A model generated the notes under the pieces. It did no database searches, had not been told where the DNA came from, and worked only from the letters and a program-made list of their open reading frames with translations. From Verrucomicrobiales bacterium (GTDB lineage: Bacteria > Verrucomicrobiota > Verrucomicrobiia > Verrucomicrobiales > DEV007): a stretch of 64,000 bases of DNA. The stretch is from assembly GCA_016795505.1 (NCBI GenBank), contig JAEUHH010000107.1, positions 1 through 64,000 of the forward strand, written 5' to 3'. The position numbers and the translations under genes were made by a program. Of the stretch, positions 5,247-62,668 are shown one piece after another; the first letter of the stretch is position 1; each line of letters opens with the position of its first letter.

Positions 5247-5383
5247 GGTTTATTTCTGAGTTTGTTTTGGGATGGTATTCGAGGAAGGGGTTCTTCAAGG
5301 GAAGATCACGACACACGCCGGGCCTCACTCGCGGAACCACTTGCTCTAAACCACGGCCCTCGGAGCAAACAAAGCCCGATTGG

Positions 5384-5399
5384 GTGACATTGGCGTCAC
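5384..5399. promoter_or_regulatory. operator-like palindrome GTGAC-N6-GTCAC, copy A
   Basis: A perfect 5+5 inverted repeat with spacer ATTGGC lies in the 258-bp divergent region between the genes at 5246 (minus) and 5505 (plus). The same palindrome recurs at 6679-6694 and 14579-14594, also in intergenic DNA. Confidence 0.55.
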
Positions 5400-5504
5400 A
5401 CACGGCACTCTGGATTCGTTCTAACCTTTATTCTAGGAAAAAGCTTTCAATCTTACGAAATCTTCACATGAAGACTGCCCGGAACTTGGCACGATCTTAG
5501 AGCG

Positions 5505-6485
5505 ATGACTGTAGAGCTCCCTATTCCTGTGTTCCGACATCGATTTCGTTCGCCCACCCGGAAACCCGCGAAAGCATGGCTTCTGGCCGCCTTGCTCCTG
5601 TTGGTCGGGTGGGGAGTCATGGAAGCAGCCGAAGCCCCAGCCATCGCCCCCGACGGAAAACCTGTCGATCCCACCAGCGATCCGAAAGCAGCGGTCGATC
5701 TGGCTCGGAGGTATCTGCGGGGCGAAGGAGTGGCAACCGATCCCCGAAAGGCACGGGACCTGGTGAGCCCTCATGCCGAAGCTGGCCACCCCGAAGCTCA
5801 AGCCCTGATGGGCTACTTTTCCGCCCAAGGGCTCGGCACGCCAAAGGACGACCTGGTCGCCATCCGCTGGTTTCGGAAGGCAGCAGATCAGGGAAATTCC
5901 GCCGCGCAGTTCAACTTGGGGATGTTGTTGCTCGCCGGGAAAAACGCCGAAGCCAATCTGGCCGAAAGCCTCAAGGGAATCTCCGAAGCTTTGAACTGGC
6001 TCGAGGCTGCGGCGAATCAGGGTAATTTGGATGCTCAACTCCGACTGGCGGATCTTTTCTATTTTGGCAGCGACGGCATCGAAAAAGATCGGGCCAAAGC
6101 GCTGCCCTGGGCTCGCCGCGCCGCCGAATCGGGAAACCGTTGGGCCCAACAACTTTACGGAAACATGCTGGAATGGGGCGAAGGCGGTCTCAAAGCCGAC
6201 CGATCACTGGCGCTGGTGTGGTATCGCAAAGCCGCGGAACAGGGCGACGCCAAGGCCCAGAGCAGCCTCGGGCGCATCCTCGCCGGAAGCACAGAGCCCG
6301 CGGATGAACTGGAAGCCTACGTCTGGCTCCGATTGAGCGCCGAACAAAAGGAACAGACCGCCATCAACTATATCAAAGAGCACATCGAAGCCCTCACGGA
6401 CGAACAGATCAACGAGGGCAATCGGCTCTACTTGAAGAAAAAGGCAGAACTGGAAAGCCGGAACACTGCGTCCGACCGCTCCTGA
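5505..6485 (+). CDS. Sel1-like repeat (SLR) protein, membrane-anchored or exported
   Basis: This encodes 326 residues. A hydrophobic stretch at about 23-42 (AKAWLLAALLLLVGWGVMEA) is an anchor or uncleaved signal. From about residue 60 there are at least five Sel1-type alpha-helical repeats, recognisable as 'A..WFRKAADQGNSAAQFNLG', 'ALNWLEAAANQGNLDAQLRL', 'ALPWARRAAESGNRWAQQLY' and 'ALVWYRKAAEQGDAKAQSSL'. Sel1 repeats are protein-protein interaction scaffolds; the partner cannot be told. The gene faces away from the PstS-like gene across a shared regulatory region and stands upstream of the secretion cluster, separated by about 300 bp. Confidence 0.8.
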   Translation: MTVELPIPVFRHRFRSPTRKPAKAWLLAALLLLVGWGVMEAAEAPAIAPDGKPVDPTSDPKAAVDLARRYLRGEGVATDPRKARDLVSPHAEAGHPEAQALMGYFSAQGLGTPKDDLVAIRWFRKAADQGNSAAQFNLGMLLLAGKNAEANLAESLKGISEALNWLEAAANQGNLDAQLRLADLFYFGSDGIEKDRAKALPWARRAAESGNRWAQQLYGNMLEWGEGGLKADRSLALVWYRKAAEQGDAKAQSSLGRILAGSTEPADELEAYVWLRLSAEQKEQTAINYIKEHIEALTDEQINEGNRLYLKKKAELESRNTASDRS

Positions 6486-15676: not shown

Positions 15677-15727
15677 CTTTCCGATCAAACCCTGTTCGAT
15701 CGGAGATCAGACCCTGTCTCATCGAAA
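15677..15727. repeat. dispersed 22-nt-period repeat, copy 2
   Basis: Two units lie between the isomerase stop and the TpsA GTG start: TTTCCGATCAAACCCTGTTC, then CGGAGATCAGACCCTGTCTC, then ATCGAAAA. The repeat fills almost the whole 57-bp gap, so the 5' untranslated sequence of tpsA is made of it. Confidence 0.7.
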
Positions 15728-40700: not shown

Positions 40701-41651
40701 ATGACCGAGCACCGCTCCCGTCTCGATGACTGGTCGCCGGTCGCCCATCCGGAAGGTCCAGCCGACTGGTTTGCCGATGGGAATGGCCGCCCGCCTTTTG
40801 ACGCCACTGAGACGGCCTTCTCTCCCGCCAATGCCTGGTGGCTGGCCGGGCTGTGCCGCATCGCCTACACCCCGGACGGAAAGGAATCGCCCCGGCCGTG
40901 GCACCGTCACAAGCCGTCCCGGCAGGCCTTCCTCGAGCAACGGACCCCGTTTCGGGAAGTTCTCAACGTCCACAAGACCGGCAACCACGCGTCGTTGTAT
41001 CGCATCGAGGGCCAGGCCGGCGCGGTGCTGTGTTTTCGCGGCACCAACAAGATCCGGCAGTGGATCATGAATGTCACCGCCCTGCCCTTGCCCTGGAGTC
41101 ATGGCACCGGCGGCGACATCTGGGTGCATCACGGCTTTCAGACCCTGTTCGACCGGCTTTGGCCGCGTCTGGAGCCAGCTCTTGCCGACGTTGATGGCCC
41201 GCTCCACCTCACCGGGCACAGCCTCGGCGGTGCCTTTGCCACGCTCGCCGCCGCCCTCGTCGGCACGCCGGCGGATTGCCTCGTGACGTTCGGCTCACCC
41301 CGCGTGGGTAATCTCGCCTTCGCCCAGGCGCTGGCCGCCCGCGGCATCCCCCACCACCGCGTGGTCAACAGCCGCGACATCGTCACCCAGTTGCCCCGGC
41401 GCGAACCACGGCTGCGGCAATTCGACTACCGGCACACCGTCCCACCGATCCTGCTGGGCGAAGCGCCCGGCTCCGTTCACTTCGGCAACCTGCCCGAAGG
41501 CGAATCCGGCCCGGATTGGGACCCGGAAAAGCCGCTGACCTGGTTGGGAAGGAAATTCCACGGCTCCAAGCCGCCCGAGGGCGTCCTCGCCCACCTGCCC
41601 GTGGCTTACGAGGCAAAACTGGCCCGCCTGGGCGACCAGTCAGGTGGCTGA
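40701..41651 (+). CDS. class 3 lipase-like alpha/beta hydrolase
   Basis: This encodes 316 residues from the ATG at 40701. 'VLCFRGTNKIRQWIMNV' precedes 'GDIWVHHGFQTLFDRLWPRL' and the nucleophile elbow 'HLTGHSLGGAFATLAAAL' (Ser174). 'CLVTFGSPRVGNLAFAQAL' and 'HRVVNSRDIVTQLPRR' supply the acid. The pattern is that of Lipase_3 (triacylglycerol lipase-like). No signal peptide is seen, so the enzyme may be cytoplasmic. It is convergent with pyrC, with a palindromic repeat between them. Confidence 0.88.
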   Translation: MTEHRSRLDDWSPVAHPEGPADWFADGNGRPPFDATETAFSPANAWWLAGLCRIAYTPDGKESPRPWHRHKPSRQAFLEQRTPFREVLNVHKTGNHASLYRIEGQAGAVLCFRGTNKIRQWIMNVTALPLPWSHGTGGDIWVHHGFQTLFDRLWPRLEPALADVDGPLHLTGHSLGGAFATLAAALVGTPADCLVTFGSPRVGNLAFAQALAARGIPHHRVVNSRDIVTQLPRREPRLRQFDYRHTVPPILLGEAPGSVHFGNLPEGESGPDWDPEKPLTWLGRKFHGSKPPEGVLAHLPVAYEAKLARLGDQSGG

Positions 41652-41704
41652 TTTCCGATGCAACCCTGTTTGATCGCCGATGCAACAGGGTCTGATCGGA
41701 AATC
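41650..41704. repeat. dispersed repeat, copy 4; long palindrome, likely bidirectional terminator
   Basis: GATTTCCGAT at 41650 pairs with ATCGGAAATC ending at 41704, and inner AACCCTGTT pairs with AACAGGGT, giving a long imperfect stem. It fills the gap between the convergent lipase and pyrC stops. The position favours transcription termination on both strands. Confidence 0.65.
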
Positions 41705-50206: not shown

Positions 50207-50284
50207 GTTTCCGATCAGACCGGGTTCCGTCGGAGAGGAGACAGGGTTCGATCGGAGAGGCAAGAGGGTTGGATCGGAGAGTCG
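50207..50284. repeat. dispersed 22-nt-period repeat, copy 5
   Basis: Three imperfect units run TTCCGATCAGACCGGGTTCC, GTCGGAGAGGAGACAGGGTT, CGATCGGAGAGGCAAGAGGG, then TTGGATCGGAGAG. The copy abuts the hsdM stop (50290) and fills the last part of the 207-bp gap after the tRNA. It may act as the hsdM terminator. Confidence 0.65.
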
Positions 50285-50289
50285 CGAAA

Positions 50290-51903
50290 TCAGGGCAGCG
50301 GCTTCAGCCCGAGTTCTTGGAGAAAGGCGTTGTGCTTGCGGGTGGCCTCCTGGATGGCGGCGTCGATCTCGACCAGTTGTTGGTGGGTGGCCGCCAGATC
50401 GATTTCGTCTTCGGCCACCGCCGTGCTGATGTAGCGCGAGATATTCAGGTTGTAGTCGTTCTTTTCGATCTCTGCCATGCCGACCCGACGGGAGTAGCGG
50501 TCTTCCTCGGAGCGGTTCTGGTAGGTGCTGATGATCTTGGCGATGTGCTCCGCGCTCAGTTGGTTCTGGCGCTTGCCTTTCACAAAGTGCTCGGCGGCGT
50601 TGATGAAGAGCACGTCGTCGGGCTTCTTGCACTTCTTGAGCACCAGGATGCAGACCGGGATGCCGGTGGAGTAGAAGAGATTGGCAGGCAGGCCGATGAT
50701 GGTGTCGATGTGGCCGTCCTTCAGCAGCTTGGTGCGGATGCGTTCCTCGGCTCCGCCGCGGAAGAGCACGCCGTGGGGCAGGATGATCGCCATCACGCCT
50801 TCATCCTTGAGGTAGTGGAAGCCGTGCAGCAGGAAGGCGAAGTCGGCGGCGGACTTGGGGGCGAGGCCGTGGCTTTTGAAGCGCACGTCGTCGGCCAGTG
50901 CGTCAGTGGGTTCCCAGCGCAGGCTGAAGGGTGGATTGGCGACGATGGCGTCGAAGCTCGGTTTCCGGGCCGGGTTCTGCTCCCGCATCACGTCCCACTC
51001 GTTGAGCAGGGTGTCGCCGTGGAAGATCTCGAACTCCGTGTCCTTCACCCCGTGCAGCAGCATGTTCATGCGGGCGAGGTTGTAGGTGGTGATGTTCTTC
51101 TCCTGGCCGAAGATCTTGCCGATGGTGCCGCCCGTCTGGGCCACCTTCTTGCGGACGTTGAGCAGCAGGGAGCCGGAGCCGCAGGTCATGTCCATCACGC
51201 TCTCCAACCGCTTCTTGATGCCGGTCTTCGGCTCCTGGCTGTCCAGCGTGACGATGGCCGAGAGCACGTCGGAAATTTGCTGCGGGGTGTAGAACTCGCC
51301 CGCCTTCTTGCCCGCCCCGGCGGCGAACTGGCCGATCAGGTATTCGTAGGCATCGCCCAGTGCATCCACATCCGTGGAGAATTCCGCCAGCCCTTCGGCG
51401 ATCTTCTGGATGATGGTGCAGAGCTTGGCGTTCCGGTCGGCGTAGGTCTTGCCCAGCTTGGGAGAACTCAGGTCAATCTCGGAGAACAGGCCCTGAAAGG
51501 TGCTCTCGAAGGATTCCGTCTCGATGTATTTGAAGCCCGCTTGAAGCGTGTTCAGCAGCTCCGCGTTCTGGGTGCGGGCCAGGTTGGCGATGCTATTCCA
51601 GAGGTGGGCGGGCTGGATGACGTAGTGCACCTTGCGCCGCATCTGCTTCTCGAACGCCGGGATGTCATCGACATTGTTCGCATACCACAGCGCCAGCGGC
51701 ACCTTGCGGGCGTCTCCGCCCACATCAGGGTAATCCCGCCCCAGCTCCTTCTTCGCCGCCGTCTCGTAGTTGTCCGAGAGGTAGCGCAGGAAGAGGAAGG
51801 ACAGCATGTAGTCGCGGAAATCGTCCGCATCCATCGCCCCGCGCAGTTGGTCGGCGATGGCCCAGAGGGTGCTGCCCAGTGGTTTTTGGTTGGTGTCGGT
51901 CAT
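50290..51903 (-). CDS. hsdM: type I restriction-modification DNA methyltransferase subunit
   Basis: This encodes 537 residues from the ATG at 51903, which overlaps the stop of the 66-aa gene (ATGA). An HsdM_N helical domain (about 8-150) is followed by the N6-adenine methyltransferase domain with SAM motif 'MDMTCGSGSLLL' (about 237-248) and the catalytic 'VANPPFSL' (NPPF 323-326). It methylates adenine at the site chosen by HsdS. Length and motifs look intact. It is the last gene of a locus transcribed right to left and separated from hsdS by the RAYT and zeta genes. Confidence 0.94.
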   Translation of the reverse strand: MTDTNQKPLGSTLWAIADQLRGAMDADDFRDYMLSFLFLRYLSDNYETAAKKELGRDYPDVGGDARKVPLALWYANNVDDIPAFEKQMRRKVHYVIQPAHLWNSIANLARTQNAELLNTLQAGFKYIETESFESTFQGLFSEIDLSSPKLGKTYADRNAKLCTIIQKIAEGLAEFSTDVDALGDAYEYLIGQFAAGAGKKAGEFYTPQQISDVLSAIVTLDSQEPKTGIKKRLESVMDMTCGSGSLLLNVRKKVAQTGGTIGKIFGQEKNITTYNLARMNMLLHGVKDTEFEIFHGDTLLNEWDVMREQNPARKPSFDAIVANPPFSLRWEPTDALADDVRFKSHGLAPKSAADFAFLLHGFHYLKDEGVMAIILPHGVLFRGGAEERIRTKLLKDGHIDTIIGLPANLFYSTGIPVCILVLKKCKKPDDVLFINAAEHFVKGKRQNQLSAEHIAKIISTYQNRSEEDRYSRRVGMAEIEKNDYNLNISRYISTAVAEDEIDLAATHQQLVEIDAAIQEATRKHNAFLQELGLKPLP

Positions 51904-52100
51904 GGTTTGGGGGCGTTTCCTTCGGCGCTTCGACGGAGTTCTTCCGCGGAGAGCCGCAGCAGCTTCCCGTCCTTCACGATGATCAGATCGGTGTCCGTCT
52001 GAATGGCGACCTTTCGCGCGGCGGCTGCCGATCGCCGCAGGGCGTTGAGCGAGCCGCGCAGGGCTGGATTCTTGGCTTTCGTGATGTCGTTGGTCTTCAT
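51900..52100 (-). CDS. small protein between zeta-like kinase and hsdM
   Basis: This encodes 66 residues. Its start (52100) overlaps the stop of the zeta-like gene and its stop overlaps the hsdM start, both as ATGA, which strongly supports it as a real translated gene. It is basic at the N-terminus (MKTNDITKAKNPALRG) and has a short beta-like middle (AIQTDTDLIIVKDGKLLRLS). I do not recognise a family. By position it could be the antitoxin or partner of the kinase; that is inference. Confidence 0.7.
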   Translation of the reverse strand: MKTNDITKAKNPALRGSLNALRRSAAAARKVAIQTDTDLIIVKDGKLLRLSAEELRRSAEGNAPKP

Positions 52101-52615
52101 TGGTTTTCCTCCAATTCGAGCAGGACGGGAGTTTCTCCCACATTATCAAACAGCGCCCACGCATCCACCGCGGACTTGTAGGCCTCGTGAAAGTTCCGCA
52201 GCCCGGCGGCAAAGCGCCGCCGGATCACCGCTTCCGGAATGTCATGCCCGCCTTGCTTCACGCGTTCGGCCACCCGGGCGATCGCCGTTTCCGCGTTTGG
52301 AAGGCAGAGGAAGAACAGGCTCACGTGGTAGCCTTGCTCCCGCCATTGCCGGATGCGGGGCAGATAACTGTGGCCGGAAAGCGTGGTCTCAAAGGCGAAG
52401 CTCTCTCCCCGGCGCGCGCAGTCTGCTATCTCCTCCAGCATCAGTCGCCCGGCCTTGAGGGCGGCGGCTTCGGGCGCGAAGGGGGAAAGCCCTGCCGCGA
52501 TCAGGTCCGCATTGATGAAGCGGCTGCACTGCGCCTCCTCCGGCAGGAAGGAACGGGCAAAGGTCGTTTTCCCCGCCCCGTTCGGCCCGGCAATGATGAT
52601 GATCTTCTTGCTCAT
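52097..52615 (-). CDS. zeta-toxin-like P-loop kinase
   Basis: This encodes 172 residues. The Walker A 'IIIIAGPNGAGKTTFARSFL' (Gly10-Thr17) and the 'FINADLIAAGLSPFAPEAAA' segment are those of zeta-toxin and AAA_33-type kinases, followed by 'FAFETTLSGHSYLPRIRQWR' and 'HDIPEAVIRRRFAAGLRNF'. Zeta toxins phosphorylate UDP-N-acetylglucosamine; short homologues are common beside a small protein and may not be toxic. Overlap with the next gene marks an operon. Confidence 0.82.
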   Translation of the reverse strand: MSKKIIIIAGPNGAGKTTFARSFLPEEAQCSRFINADLIAAGLSPFAPEAAALKAGRLMLEEIADCARRGESFAFETTLSGHSYLPRIRQWREQGYHVSLFFLCLPNAETAIARVAERVKQGGHDIPEAVIRRRFAAGLRNFHEAYKSAVDAWALFDNVGETPVLLELEENQ

Positions 52616-52621
52616 GGCGTT

Positions 52622-53074
52622 TCAGTCCCAGACATAGCGTTCGTCATATTCGATTCCGTATTTCTTGAGAAAGGCGCGGTATTCGTCCTGGAAAGTTCGC
52701 GTCTTGTGATGCTCCACCTGGTTGTCGATGTAGAGGAGCAGTGCATTCAGGTCAGATGGCCCCACGGAAAAAGCACCGTAGCCGCGTTGCCAGGCAAATG
52801 CGGCCAATGCAGGCGATTGGGTTTTCAGCCATTTGGAGGACGACGTCTTCAATTCCTCGATGAGCTGGGCCATGGTGATCGTTCGGGAGAGCCGGACGGC
52901 AAGATGCACATGATCCGCCACACCTCCGACGCGGAAACATTCGCAATCCACATTGCGGGCGACCGTCGCGAGATAGGCGTGCAGCGGGGGGCGCACCGTG
53001 CCGTCGAGCACGGGAGCCCGGTCTTTGGTGCTAAAGACGATGTGCGTCAGGAGATACGAGAGCGATTGTGGCAT
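52622..53074 (-). mobile_element. REP-associated tyrosine transposase (RAYT, IS200/Y1 family)
   Basis: This encodes 150 residues. The HUH motif is in 'GGVADHVHLAVRL' (His55, His57) and the catalytic tyrosine in 'LLLYIDNQVEHHKTRTFQDE' (Tyr115). 'KWLKTQSPALAAFAWQRGYG' and the C-terminus 'YGIEYDERYVWD' are typical. Such proteins nick and move REP sequences. It is next to an inverted pair of REP-like hairpins (53089-53345). No second open frame or terminal repeats of a full IS are seen. It separates hsdS from the rest of the hsd operon. Confidence 0.88.
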
Positions 53075-53088
53075 GGCGCGGCGGGATG

Positions 53089-53345
53089 GGTCGGGCTTTC
53101 AGCCCTCATGCGGTATCCGTGGGCATGTCCTGGGGCGTTGCCCCAGGCTGGTATAAAGATGCGCCGTTGGCGCGGAAGACGGGAGCACGGCGCGGAAGAA
53201 GGGACCTTATCGAGGAAGAAGAGCCACGTCCGTGATTTGTGGCCCTTGTCGGATTCTGAGGGCCAAAGGCCCAAAGCCATACCAGCCTGGGGCATCGCCC
53301 CAGGAACCGCGAACGCGACACATTCCGAGGGCTGAAAGCCCGACC
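53089..53345. repeat. inverted REP/BIME element beside the RAYT
   Basis: The left outer arm GGTCGGGCTTTCAGCCCTC (53089-53107) is a perfect 19-bp inverted match to 53327-53345. The inner arm 53129-53154, which contains CCTGGGGCGTTGCCCCAGG and a trailing CTGGTAT, matches 53279-53304 inverted with one mismatch. Each arm is itself a hairpin. Small hairpins GCGCCGTTGGCGC and GGGCCAAAGGCCC lie between them. The 333-bp gap 53075-53407 holds this element and no gene. Confidence 0.8.
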
Positions 53346-53407
53346 TATCCGCACGAGGGCATGACCCACCGCCGCATTCACACCAACGATCATCTCATTC
53401 ACCGCGC

Positions 53408-58286: not shown

Positions 58287-59039
58287 GGATCGAACGGTGA
58301 GAGGATCACGGGTGGCGGTGAGGCGGCGCCCCGATATTACCCACCCATTCCGCCTCGGCAACGCGGGAATGGGCTTTTTTGCGGGGTGAAACCGCCGGGG
58401 AGCCGCAAAGCCGGTCTGAAGTGCCCCTCCCTCGCTCTTGAGGGCGGTTCCTGACTCCCGCTTGGGCCGCGGACGGCGGGAGGACGACCCAAAAATCTTT
58501 TTCCAGCCCTCCGACGGCGGGAGGACGACCAAAAAATCTTTTTCCAGCCTTCCGACGGCGGGAGGACGACCCGAAAATCTTTTTCCAGCCTTCCGACGGC
58601 GGGAGGACGACCCGAAAATCTTTTTCCAGCCCTCCGACGACGGGAGGAAGGCTAAAAAAGGGCATTTTCACGGAAAATGGGGCCGAACGGGCCGTGGGAC
58701 GCCCAACAGCCCCTTTTCCTCGCCGAGCGGGGACGGTCCGGATGGGCCGAATTCGACGGGCCCGCCTCGCCCGCCACACCGCCTCGGGAGCGGCCCCGAA
58801 AAAAAAAGTGAGGATCGACGAAAAAAAAGCTCGCCTCGACTGGGGCGACTGTCCTAGCATCGCAACCAATCCGCTACCCGATCCGAATCGTTCCCCGACT
58901 GGGCGACAGCCCGGTATCGCCCGTCTGGTGATGGGGGAAGGGTCCGAACCGGGGCCGGCGGGGATCTGTGTTCACCGCTCAAAAAACAAAACAACGGCGG
59001 TCGTTCCTCTCTCCTCTCCCGCAAGCCCTCTCCACCTCC
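58287..59039. other. 753-bp non-coding region upstream of hsdR and the Fn3 gene
   Basis: No gene is supported. It contains the 41-bp tandem array (58475-58638), two A-runs (about 58799-58807 and 58821-58828) and GC-rich spacer. The promoters of hsdR (leftward) and of the gene at 59040 (rightward) must lie here, but I see no strong promoter match. Confidence 0.6.
58475..58638. repeat. four tandem copies of a 41-bp repeat
   Basis: Units begin at 58475, 58516, 58557 and 58598. Each starts GGCGGGAGGACGACC, continues with an A/T-rich AAAATCTTTTTCCAGCC and ends with TCCGAC. They differ at a few positions only. A partial fifth start (GACGGGAGGAAGGC) follows. Confidence 0.9.
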
Positions 59040-61068: not shown

Positions 61069-62145
61069 ATGACACCCGCCCCCGACCGCCGCACGGTATT
61101 GAAACAGGCCGCTCTCTCCGCCGGTCTGGGCGGATGGCCGCTGGCTTCGGCCGGAACGGCAAACGCCGCCGCCGCCGCCGCTGCTTCCACTCCCCTACCC
61201 GACACTCCCATGACTCCCGATGAAGGGCGCGAGCGCCTGCTGGAATGCCTCGGCGGCCCCTGGCCCGAGGCCGGTCCGCTCTCTGTGGCTCTCCGCGAAA
61301 CCCGGCAGATGCCGGGCTACCGGATCGAATCACTGACCTACGAGGCCGAGCCGGGCGATGCCGTGCCCGCGCTGCTGCTGATCCCCGACGGGGTCGATGC
61401 GTCGCACCCGGCTCCGGCGGTGGCGGTGTGGCATCAACACAATGGGGAATACCACCTCGGCAAATCGGAGCCCGCCGGTCTCGCGGGCAATCCCGAGCAC
61501 CACACCGGCGCCGCGCTGGCCCGGCTCGGCTATGTGGTGCTGTGCCCGGATGCCCTCTGCTTCGAGGAGCGGCAGGATGCCACCGGCAAACTGAAGGGCG
61601 GCAACTATGAGCGGTTCGAATTCCTCCGCCAGGTCGTCGACGGACGCTCGATGGCGTGGAAGAACATCCTCGACATGCGCCGCGCGATCGACTGCCTCGT
61701 GTCGCGTCCCGAGGTGAAGGCGGACCGCATCGGCTGCTACGGACACTCCATGGGCAGCACCCATGCGTGGTTGGTGGGACCGTTCGAGCCGCGGCTGCGG
61801 GCGGTGGTCGGCAATTGTTGCCTGCCCACGTATTCGGCGATCCACGAGCACCGGCTGCTGCACTGCTTCCCGAATTTCGTGCCCGGCTGGCTGCGCTACG
61901 GCGACACGCCGGAAATCGCCGCCCTGATCGCCCCGCGGGCTCTCCACCTCAATCTCGGCGAGACCGACGGCGGCAGTCCCATCGAGCACGCCCGCGCCGG
62001 CATCGAGCGCATCGCGGCCGCCTACGCGCGCGCCGGCGTGCCGGACCAGTTCACCCATTTCATCGAGCCCGCCACGGGCCATGTGTTGTCCGAGGCGATG
62101 TGGGAACGCGTCCAGGCGACCTTCGACCGGCATTTGCGGGGGTGA
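61069..62145 (+). CDS. exported alpha/beta-hydrolase (dienelactone hydrolase/acetyl-xylan-esterase-like)
   Basis: This encodes 358 residues. The N-terminus is Tat-like (DRRTVLKQAALSAGLGGW). The nucleophile elbow is 'CYGHSMGSTHAWLVG' (Ser227); 'GETDGGSPIEHARAGIER' and 'THFIEPATGHVLSEAMW' supply Asp and His. The large mature part resembles alpha/beta hydrolases of the acetyl-xylan-esterase/dienelactone hydrolase group used on polysaccharide esters. The substrate is unknown. Confidence 0.83.
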   Translation: MTPAPDRRTVLKQAALSAGLGGWPLASAGTANAAAAAAASTPLPDTPMTPDEGRERLLECLGGPWPEAGPLSVALRETRQMPGYRIESLTYEAEPGDAVPALLLIPDGVDASHPAPAVAVWHQHNGEYHLGKSEPAGLAGNPEHHTGAALARLGYVVLCPDALCFEERQDATGKLKGGNYERFEFLRQVVDGRSMAWKNILDMRRAIDCLVSRPEVKADRIGCYGHSMGSTHAWLVGPFEPRLRAVVGNCCLPTYSAIHEHRLLHCFPNFVPGWLRYGDTPEIAALIAPRALHLNLGETDGGSPIEHARAGIERIAAAYARAGVPDQFTHFIEPATGHVLSEAMWERVQATFDRHLRG

Positions 62146-62291
62146 AGGGTCCGATCAGGGCGAAAGGCGATGGCATGCCGGGCCCAGAGTCGCCGGTTCG
62201 ACCGCTCGGATGCCGGAGGCATCCCGGTTGACCGGCCGGCAGAATTGGGGCGATGAAACGCCAGAGTCCCGCGGCAGGCGGGTGTGAATTT

Positions 62292-62347
62292 GGCTTTCAG
62301 CCAAACCGGGAACGGTCGGACATTTCCTGGGGCGGTTGCCCCAGGCT
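62292..62347. repeat. REP-like element, first two hairpins
   Basis: GGCTTTCAGCC (62292-62302) is followed after 23 bp by CCTGGGGCGGTTGCCCCAGG and CT (62326-62347). This is the same order as in the RAYT-linked element at 53089-53154. The third hairpin of this element is multiplied in the adjoining array. Confidence 0.72.
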
Positions 62348-62349
62348 AC

Positions 62350-62557
62350 GGTGAAGTTGGCCTTTGGCCAACGGGAGCGCCGGTGAGGTTGGCGTTTGGC
62401 CAGACGGGTGCGCCGGTGAGGTTGGCGTTTGGCCAACGGAAGCGCCGGTGAGGTTGGCGTTTGGCCAGACGGGAGCGCTGGTGAGGTTGGCGTTTGGCCA
62501 GACGAGAGCGCTGGTGAAGTTGGCCTTTGGCCAACGGGAGCGCTGGTGAGGTTGGCC
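62350..62557. repeat. tandem array of a 32-33-bp hairpin unit, about six copies
   Basis: Units read GGTGAGGTTGGCGTTTGGCC, then A(G)ACGGGAGCGCC. Each contains the palindrome TTGGCxTTTGGCCA. The first and last units have AAGTTGGCCTTTGGCC and the middle ones GCGTTTGGCC. Together with the REP (62292-62347) and the 22-nt repeat (62591-62668) it fills most of the 588-bp gap 62146-62733, where no gene is seen. Confidence 0.85.
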
Positions 62558-62590
62558 CGGAGGTCGGGGGAAGGGCCTGAATCCCGCGGC

Positions 62591-62668
62591 GTTCCGATCA
62601 GACCCTCTTTGATCGGAGATGAGACCCTCTTTGATCGGAGATGAGACCCTGTTGGTCCGGGAATCGGG
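62591..62668. repeat. dispersed 22-nt-period repeat, copy 6
   Basis: Three units follow each other: TTCCGATCAGACCCTCTT, then GATCGGAGATGAGACCCTCT, then GATCGGAGATGAGACCCTGT, with a terminal GTCCGGGAATCGG. This is the clearest tandem example of the 22-nt period. It lies 66 bp before the next gene. Confidence 0.75.

Follow-up and report, generated by a model that had tools for sequence, protein, structure and literature searches.

At positions 62284-62557 of the window (the whole stretch of 64,000 nucleotides of Verrucomicrobiales bacterium DNA that was analysed), a three-hairpin REP continues into an array of six complete H3-bearing units of 32/33 bp plus a partial seventh, H3 being the third of its hairpins. 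We consider it likely that a dispersed, RAYT-linked REP has had its inner end duplicated locally and in tandem, yielding the architecture H1-H2-(H3)6.2, through slippage or unequal exchange and with no selected function. The feature is genuine, though it departs only modestly from bacterial repeats of a known class; it does not constitute a CRISPR array, nor is it a gene.

The original prediction, namely two ordered hairpins followed by about six units of 32-33 bp containing TTGGCxTTTGGCCA, agrees with what is found at the locus, which consists of the following parts:

62290-62304, plus strand: H1, the first REP hairpin, TTGGCTTTCAGCCAA (R1 covariance-model hit at 62284-62354, 67.7 bits)
62326-62345, plus strand: H2, the second hairpin, CCTGGGGC-GGTT-GCCCCAGG
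62346-62356, plus strand: linker CTACGGTGAAG, the 3′ part of which (CGGTGArG) recurs in the array units
62357-62551, plus strand: six full tandem units of 32/33 bp, each consisting of H3 (TTGGCsTTTGGCCA), (G)ACGGGAGCGC, and CGGTGArG
62552-62557, plus strand: partial seventh unit, the 5′ half of H3 (TTGGCC), and end of the array

The core of H1 (GGCTTTCAGCC) occupies 62292-62302, and a gap of 21 nt separates H1 from H2. Directly 3′ of H2 follows CTAC (62346-62349), which reads GTAG on the minus strand and thus represents the GTAG tag. The motif TTGGCsTTTGGCCA starts at 62357, 62389, 62422, 62454, 62487, and 62520 (spacings of 32, 33, 32, 33, and 33), and TRF reports periods of 33, 65, and 98 on the array, with scores of 319-339. 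The unit core has six matches in the 64-kb window versus 0.07 expected, a number reached in none of 100 shuffles. The whole stretch also folds much better than shuffled versions of it (z = -4.65), and an Rfam search returned no match. Within the window, no inverted REP is present to the right of the array, so this locus lacks the two inverted REPs and long hairpin of a REPIN. The array is intergenic, with a hydrolase gene upstream (61069-62145, plus strand) and another gene downstream (from about 62734, plus strand). The draft genome comprises 120 contigs; the one that holds the array is 105 kb long, and the flanks of the array are unique. The direct repeats on either side of the element (62255-62275 and 62570-62590, 17 of 21 positions matching) are probably a product of chance.

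An amplified third hairpin had been proposed, and the array is there; its unit is not the hairpin alone, as the repeated segment comprises the 3′ end of the linker (CGGTGArG), H3, and about 10 nt. The units differ from each other by one to five bases. Only units 1 and 6 retain the full 6-bp stem of H3, since a C-to-G change destroys the loop-closing pair in units 2-5 (four of the six), and units 2, 4, and 5, which carry an additional G after the hairpin, no longer fold as an H3 hairpin in isolation. All four combinations of the stem C/G and spacer CGCC/CGCT characters are present among the units, so simple in-phase copying of a single unit does not account for the growth of the array. Variable columns make up 1 of 13 in the hairpin versus 11 of 30 in the spacer, a difference that is not significant (p = 0.07). 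There is no terminator-like site within the array.

The third hairpin is a normal part of this REP, as follows from its fixed distance to H2 and the paired changes in its stem. With R1, a covariance model built on H1-H2, 56 copies are detected in the window genome (G000), which fits a dispersed short palindrome, along with 66 in G070, 55 in G018, 36 in G060, and 22 in G001, and at least one match in 26 of the 74 genomes of the taxonomic family. BLAST likewise retrieves more than 10 further H1-H2-H3-ordered copies from the same genome and more from a congener. The proposed amplification presupposed that other REPs have a related third hairpin, and such a hairpin lies 15-17 nt after H2, usually once, in 41 of 45 H1-H2 anchors (G000, G001, and G070); the search step of this automatic census is too short for the 42-bp arrays of G070, which were counted separately. 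Stems of the H1/H3 type show covariation, with 17 cells changed on both sides versus 7.5 in shuffled alignments (0 of 500), although the rows were hand-picked, making this retention by paired changes supportive rather than independent. The element has the order A-H2-A′, in which A and A′ stand for H1 and H3, two related hairpins of type A. The tetranucleotide after H2 varies: most copies in the window genus have CTAC, CTAT, or CTAA, and those at the RAYT locus and in G070 have CTGG. The GTAG REP superfamily is known from Verrucomicrobia, including families in Opitutus terrae (Di Nocera et al. 2013, PMC3733652).

The window also encodes a RAYT that is accompanied by REPs:

52622-53074, minus strand: RAYT, a Y1/HUH transposase of 150 aa (PF01797) with an intact HVH motif and YIDNQ catalytic region
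53086-53173, plus strand: REP beside RAYT, its third hairpin (GCGCCGTTGGCGC) occurring once, at 53161-53173
53263-53348, minus strand: inverted partner REP beside RAYT

The third hairpin thus occurs once at this locus, just as had been noted from the sequence. The REP found here represents a related but distinct subtype, in which H2 is followed by CTGGTAT and not by CTACGGTGA; the REP family as such is associated with RAYT, but the REP next to the window RAYT is not of the array subtype. REPs flank 1 of the 17 Y1 transposases in G000, namely the window RAYT, and 1 of the 9 in G070, the latter being 93-94% identical to the window RAYT and broken by a frameshift. Strong REP matches are also located near the RAYTs of G004 (82%), G060 (71%), G022 (53%), and G029 (54%). 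Having REPs beside RAYTs in several genera implies that the REP family and one RAYT lineage go together, and by analogy with described systems we infer that the lineage of the window RAYT mobilises this family (PMC2817692, PMC6006769).

The RAYT and REP pair lies between type I hsdM-like and hsdS-like genes (50290-53348), and a small ORF with a P-loop (zeta-toxin-like, AGPNGAGKTT; 52097-52615, minus strand) separates the hsdM-like gene from RAYT; except for RAYT, these gene names come from reading the ORFs. Both RAYT (88% at the DNA level) and hsdM (91%) closely match a block on contig C66 of G070, which belongs to another genus, whereas hydrolase orthologs between genera are nearer to 70-77% identical in protein. 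Judging from these identities, the restriction-modification locus looks to have been shared horizontally together with its RAYT.

Comparable arrays recur in G070 (Verrucomicrobiales bacterium Gw_SlAct_bin_220), which is a member of the same taxonomic family as the window genome but of a different genus. Although most of its REP copies have one H3, four loci carry H1-H2-anchored, H3-only arrays with a 42/43-bp unit, in which H3 is followed by TTGCTATTT and GCCCCGGTCTGGTATGG, so that the unit combines H3 with the 3′ half of H2 and the linker:

C59: eight hairpins
C281: six hairpins
C306: at least three hairpins (contig end)
C348: shorter array

With H3 fixed in 41 of 45 anchors and similar H3-only arrays in a second genus, the proposal of a local hairpin amplification holds up well. 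Arrays in which H2 and H3 are repeated together (units of 67-74 bp) were found on C17 (six units) and C78 (irregular) of G000 and on C312, C273, and C275 of G070, the units of C275 mixing H1 and H3 loops. On C267 of G070, the array unit has another spacer. A further kind of array, with about four repeats of a unit composed of H2-H3 plus an inverted H3, is situated on C296 of G070 (5300-6372, L146). Many G070 copies form inverted pairs, as is typical of REPINs, and in the expanded elements that were read, it is the left arm of each inverted pair that carries the array, not the right.

Of 387 genomes in the order, only G000 and G070 matched an H3-trio pattern, and a stricter pattern anchored on H2, applied to 75 genomes of the family, singled out the same two and no others; patterns requiring particular loops can miss diverged arrays. 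Extending the H3-trio scan to 84,980 genomes (window genome excluded) gave 84 stretches. Among the 80 that were inspected (L149-L228), only Verrucomicrobiales bin_220 has an H1 near the array, the others being unrelated repeats or coding sequence.

Other tandem repeats are present in the surroundings. Short tandem arrays of a 22-bp unit (consensus GATCnnACCCtgTTnsATCgsc) occur at 830-871, 15683-15723, 41648-41698, 50217-50281, and 62596-62661, with one such array 39 bp from the REP array and others near REPs (L004, L005, L007, and L018). Genome-wide, this unit forms 109 exact tandem pairs and 272 with one mismatch, as opposed to none for a reversed-pattern control, and no tandem pairs were found in 56 relatives, three congeners included. 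A short tandem repeat has here proliferated explosively in a single lineage. In addition, a 41-bp unit is repeated 4.3 times with 95% identity upstream of an hsdR-like ORF (58472-58648), and a tandem repeat of about 21 bp, resembling AACGCAATCGCATCTTCCGGG, adjoins a REP on C31 of G000 (L013, 1940-2100).

How, then, may the REP array have grown? Under the explanation that we find likely, one REP copy would have undergone several tandem duplications of its inner segment (the linker's 3′ end, H3, and some 10 nt). We infer that short G-rich direct repeats served as sites of replication slippage or unequal exchange, which the hairpins might have assisted by stalling or folding single-stranded DNA; the array would then be a by-product, serving no function under selection. 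RAYT action would account for how the element dispersed, but not for how the array grew. Unit breakpoints differ among arrays, falling in the linker, in the H2 loop, or before H2. Within the H3-only arrays of G070, units show a mean of 2.3 differences versus 5.1 between arrays (permutation p = 1e-4), pointing to homogenisation within arrays. In the units of C273 and C275, the post-H3 sequence ending in GGTGGGGTG is fused to the pre-H2 sequence starting with GGGTGGAC at a GGGTG direct repeat (identified by eye), as expected if copying had jumped between direct repeats. Taken together, the varying breakpoints, within-array homogenisation, G-rich junctions, and likeness of H1 and H3 favour local tandem duplication. 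Against it speak the REP adjoining RAYT, which is of another subtype than the array REP, and the left-arm bias of the G070 arrays, since simple slippage predicts no such bias. The hydrolase gene has orthologs in three congeners (about 73-77% identity across most of the length), and there an SDR-like gene comes immediately after it, with no REP present. As the downstream gene differs, neither a single-copy progenitor nor the duplication junction can be reconstructed from them, and the junction is particular to the window lineage.

The one-arm distribution would be easier to understand if RAYT itself built the array by cleaving and rejoining at REP hairpins, for example through circular single-stranded intermediates, from which published models indeed derive complex REP arrays (PMC3733652, PMC2817692). 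The tie between the REP family and one RAYT lineage is in line with this, but we deem it unlikely because the breakpoints vary and lie off the tetranucleotide next to H2, the H3-only units contain neither an intact H2 nor its tag, and the REP-flanked RAYT is frameshifted in G070, where more arrays were seen than in any other genome. Selection for the array we likewise deem unlikely. It could provide sites for gyrase, IHF, or nucleoid proteins, like the BIME-2 arrays of E. coli that bind gyrase (PMC2817692), or act as an attenuator or mRNA stabiliser between co-directional genes, which would suit its intergenic position (from the hydrolase gene end at 62145 to the gene start at about 62734) and its strong folding potential (z = -4.65). 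Yet the loop-closing pair is lost in four of the six units, three of which no longer fold alone into H3, and this decay argues against strong selection on the hairpin. Moreover, there is no terminator-like site inside, the unit length varies among arrays (32/33, 42/43, or 67-74 bp), and the orthologous locus of the congeners is devoid of a REP.

An artefact of the draft assembly is very improbable. Assemblies often get the number of tandem copies wrong and the draft consists of 120 contigs, but the units differ by one to five bases, the unique flanks lie inside a 105-kb contig, and the same architecture appears in an independent genome. To a CRISPR-like array or a coding repeat we assign practically no chance, despite the regular spacing and a 128-aa minus-strand frame that spans the array. 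The array extends an H1-H2 anchor found at dozens of loci, which speaks against both readings. Alignment of the units revealed no unique spacers, all parts of the unit being alike, so a CRISPR array was rejected and the resemblance to one is superficial, as the original prediction had stated. A coding repeat was discarded because the 32/33-bp period shifts the frame, leaving no peptide that repeats throughout.

Compared with known systems, the window element resembles the GTAG-tagged REP superfamily (PMC3733652) in its small H2 palindrome, the GTAG at one foot, the many intergenic copies, often as inverted pairs, and the link to RAYT. Clusters reiterated in tandem with flanking DNA have been reported for that superfamily (PMC3733652). 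Unlike its members, the window element has three hairpins in a fixed order, of which only the untagged third plus a linker remnant is repeated. In Pseudomonas fluorescens SBW25, ordered tandem arrays of near-identical units are known, for which a second mechanism beyond REPIN mobility has been assumed (Bertels and Rainey 2011, PMC3116915). The inverted pairs of G070 are reminiscent of the SBW25 REPINs, but in SBW25 the repeated units are complete REPs or REPINs together with their flanks, whereas the window unit drops H2 and keeps the inner hairpin only. E. coli BIME-2 similarly comprises tandem REP-derived units between genes, although these alternate in REP orientation while the window units all share one. 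Tandem REP clusters are established, but we did not find an anchored, third-hairpin-only array described in the literature and regard it as a new form of them.

Finally, the inner end of the REP might be a built-in amplification site, where the last hairpin, alone or together with H2, is expanded into arrays time and again and in one arm only, owing to the structure of the element or to nicking by RAYT. We hold this to be rather unlikely; if true, each expanded element would be an unstable, variable-number locus. With regard to how tandem REP arrays start, the two genera offer graded units (whole H2 plus H3, half H2 plus H3, and H3 plus linker only) beside single-copy relatives, so that breakpoints and homology can be read directly. 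As the pairing of REP and RAYT is repeated across several genera, the need for the transposase in array growth is testable as well.
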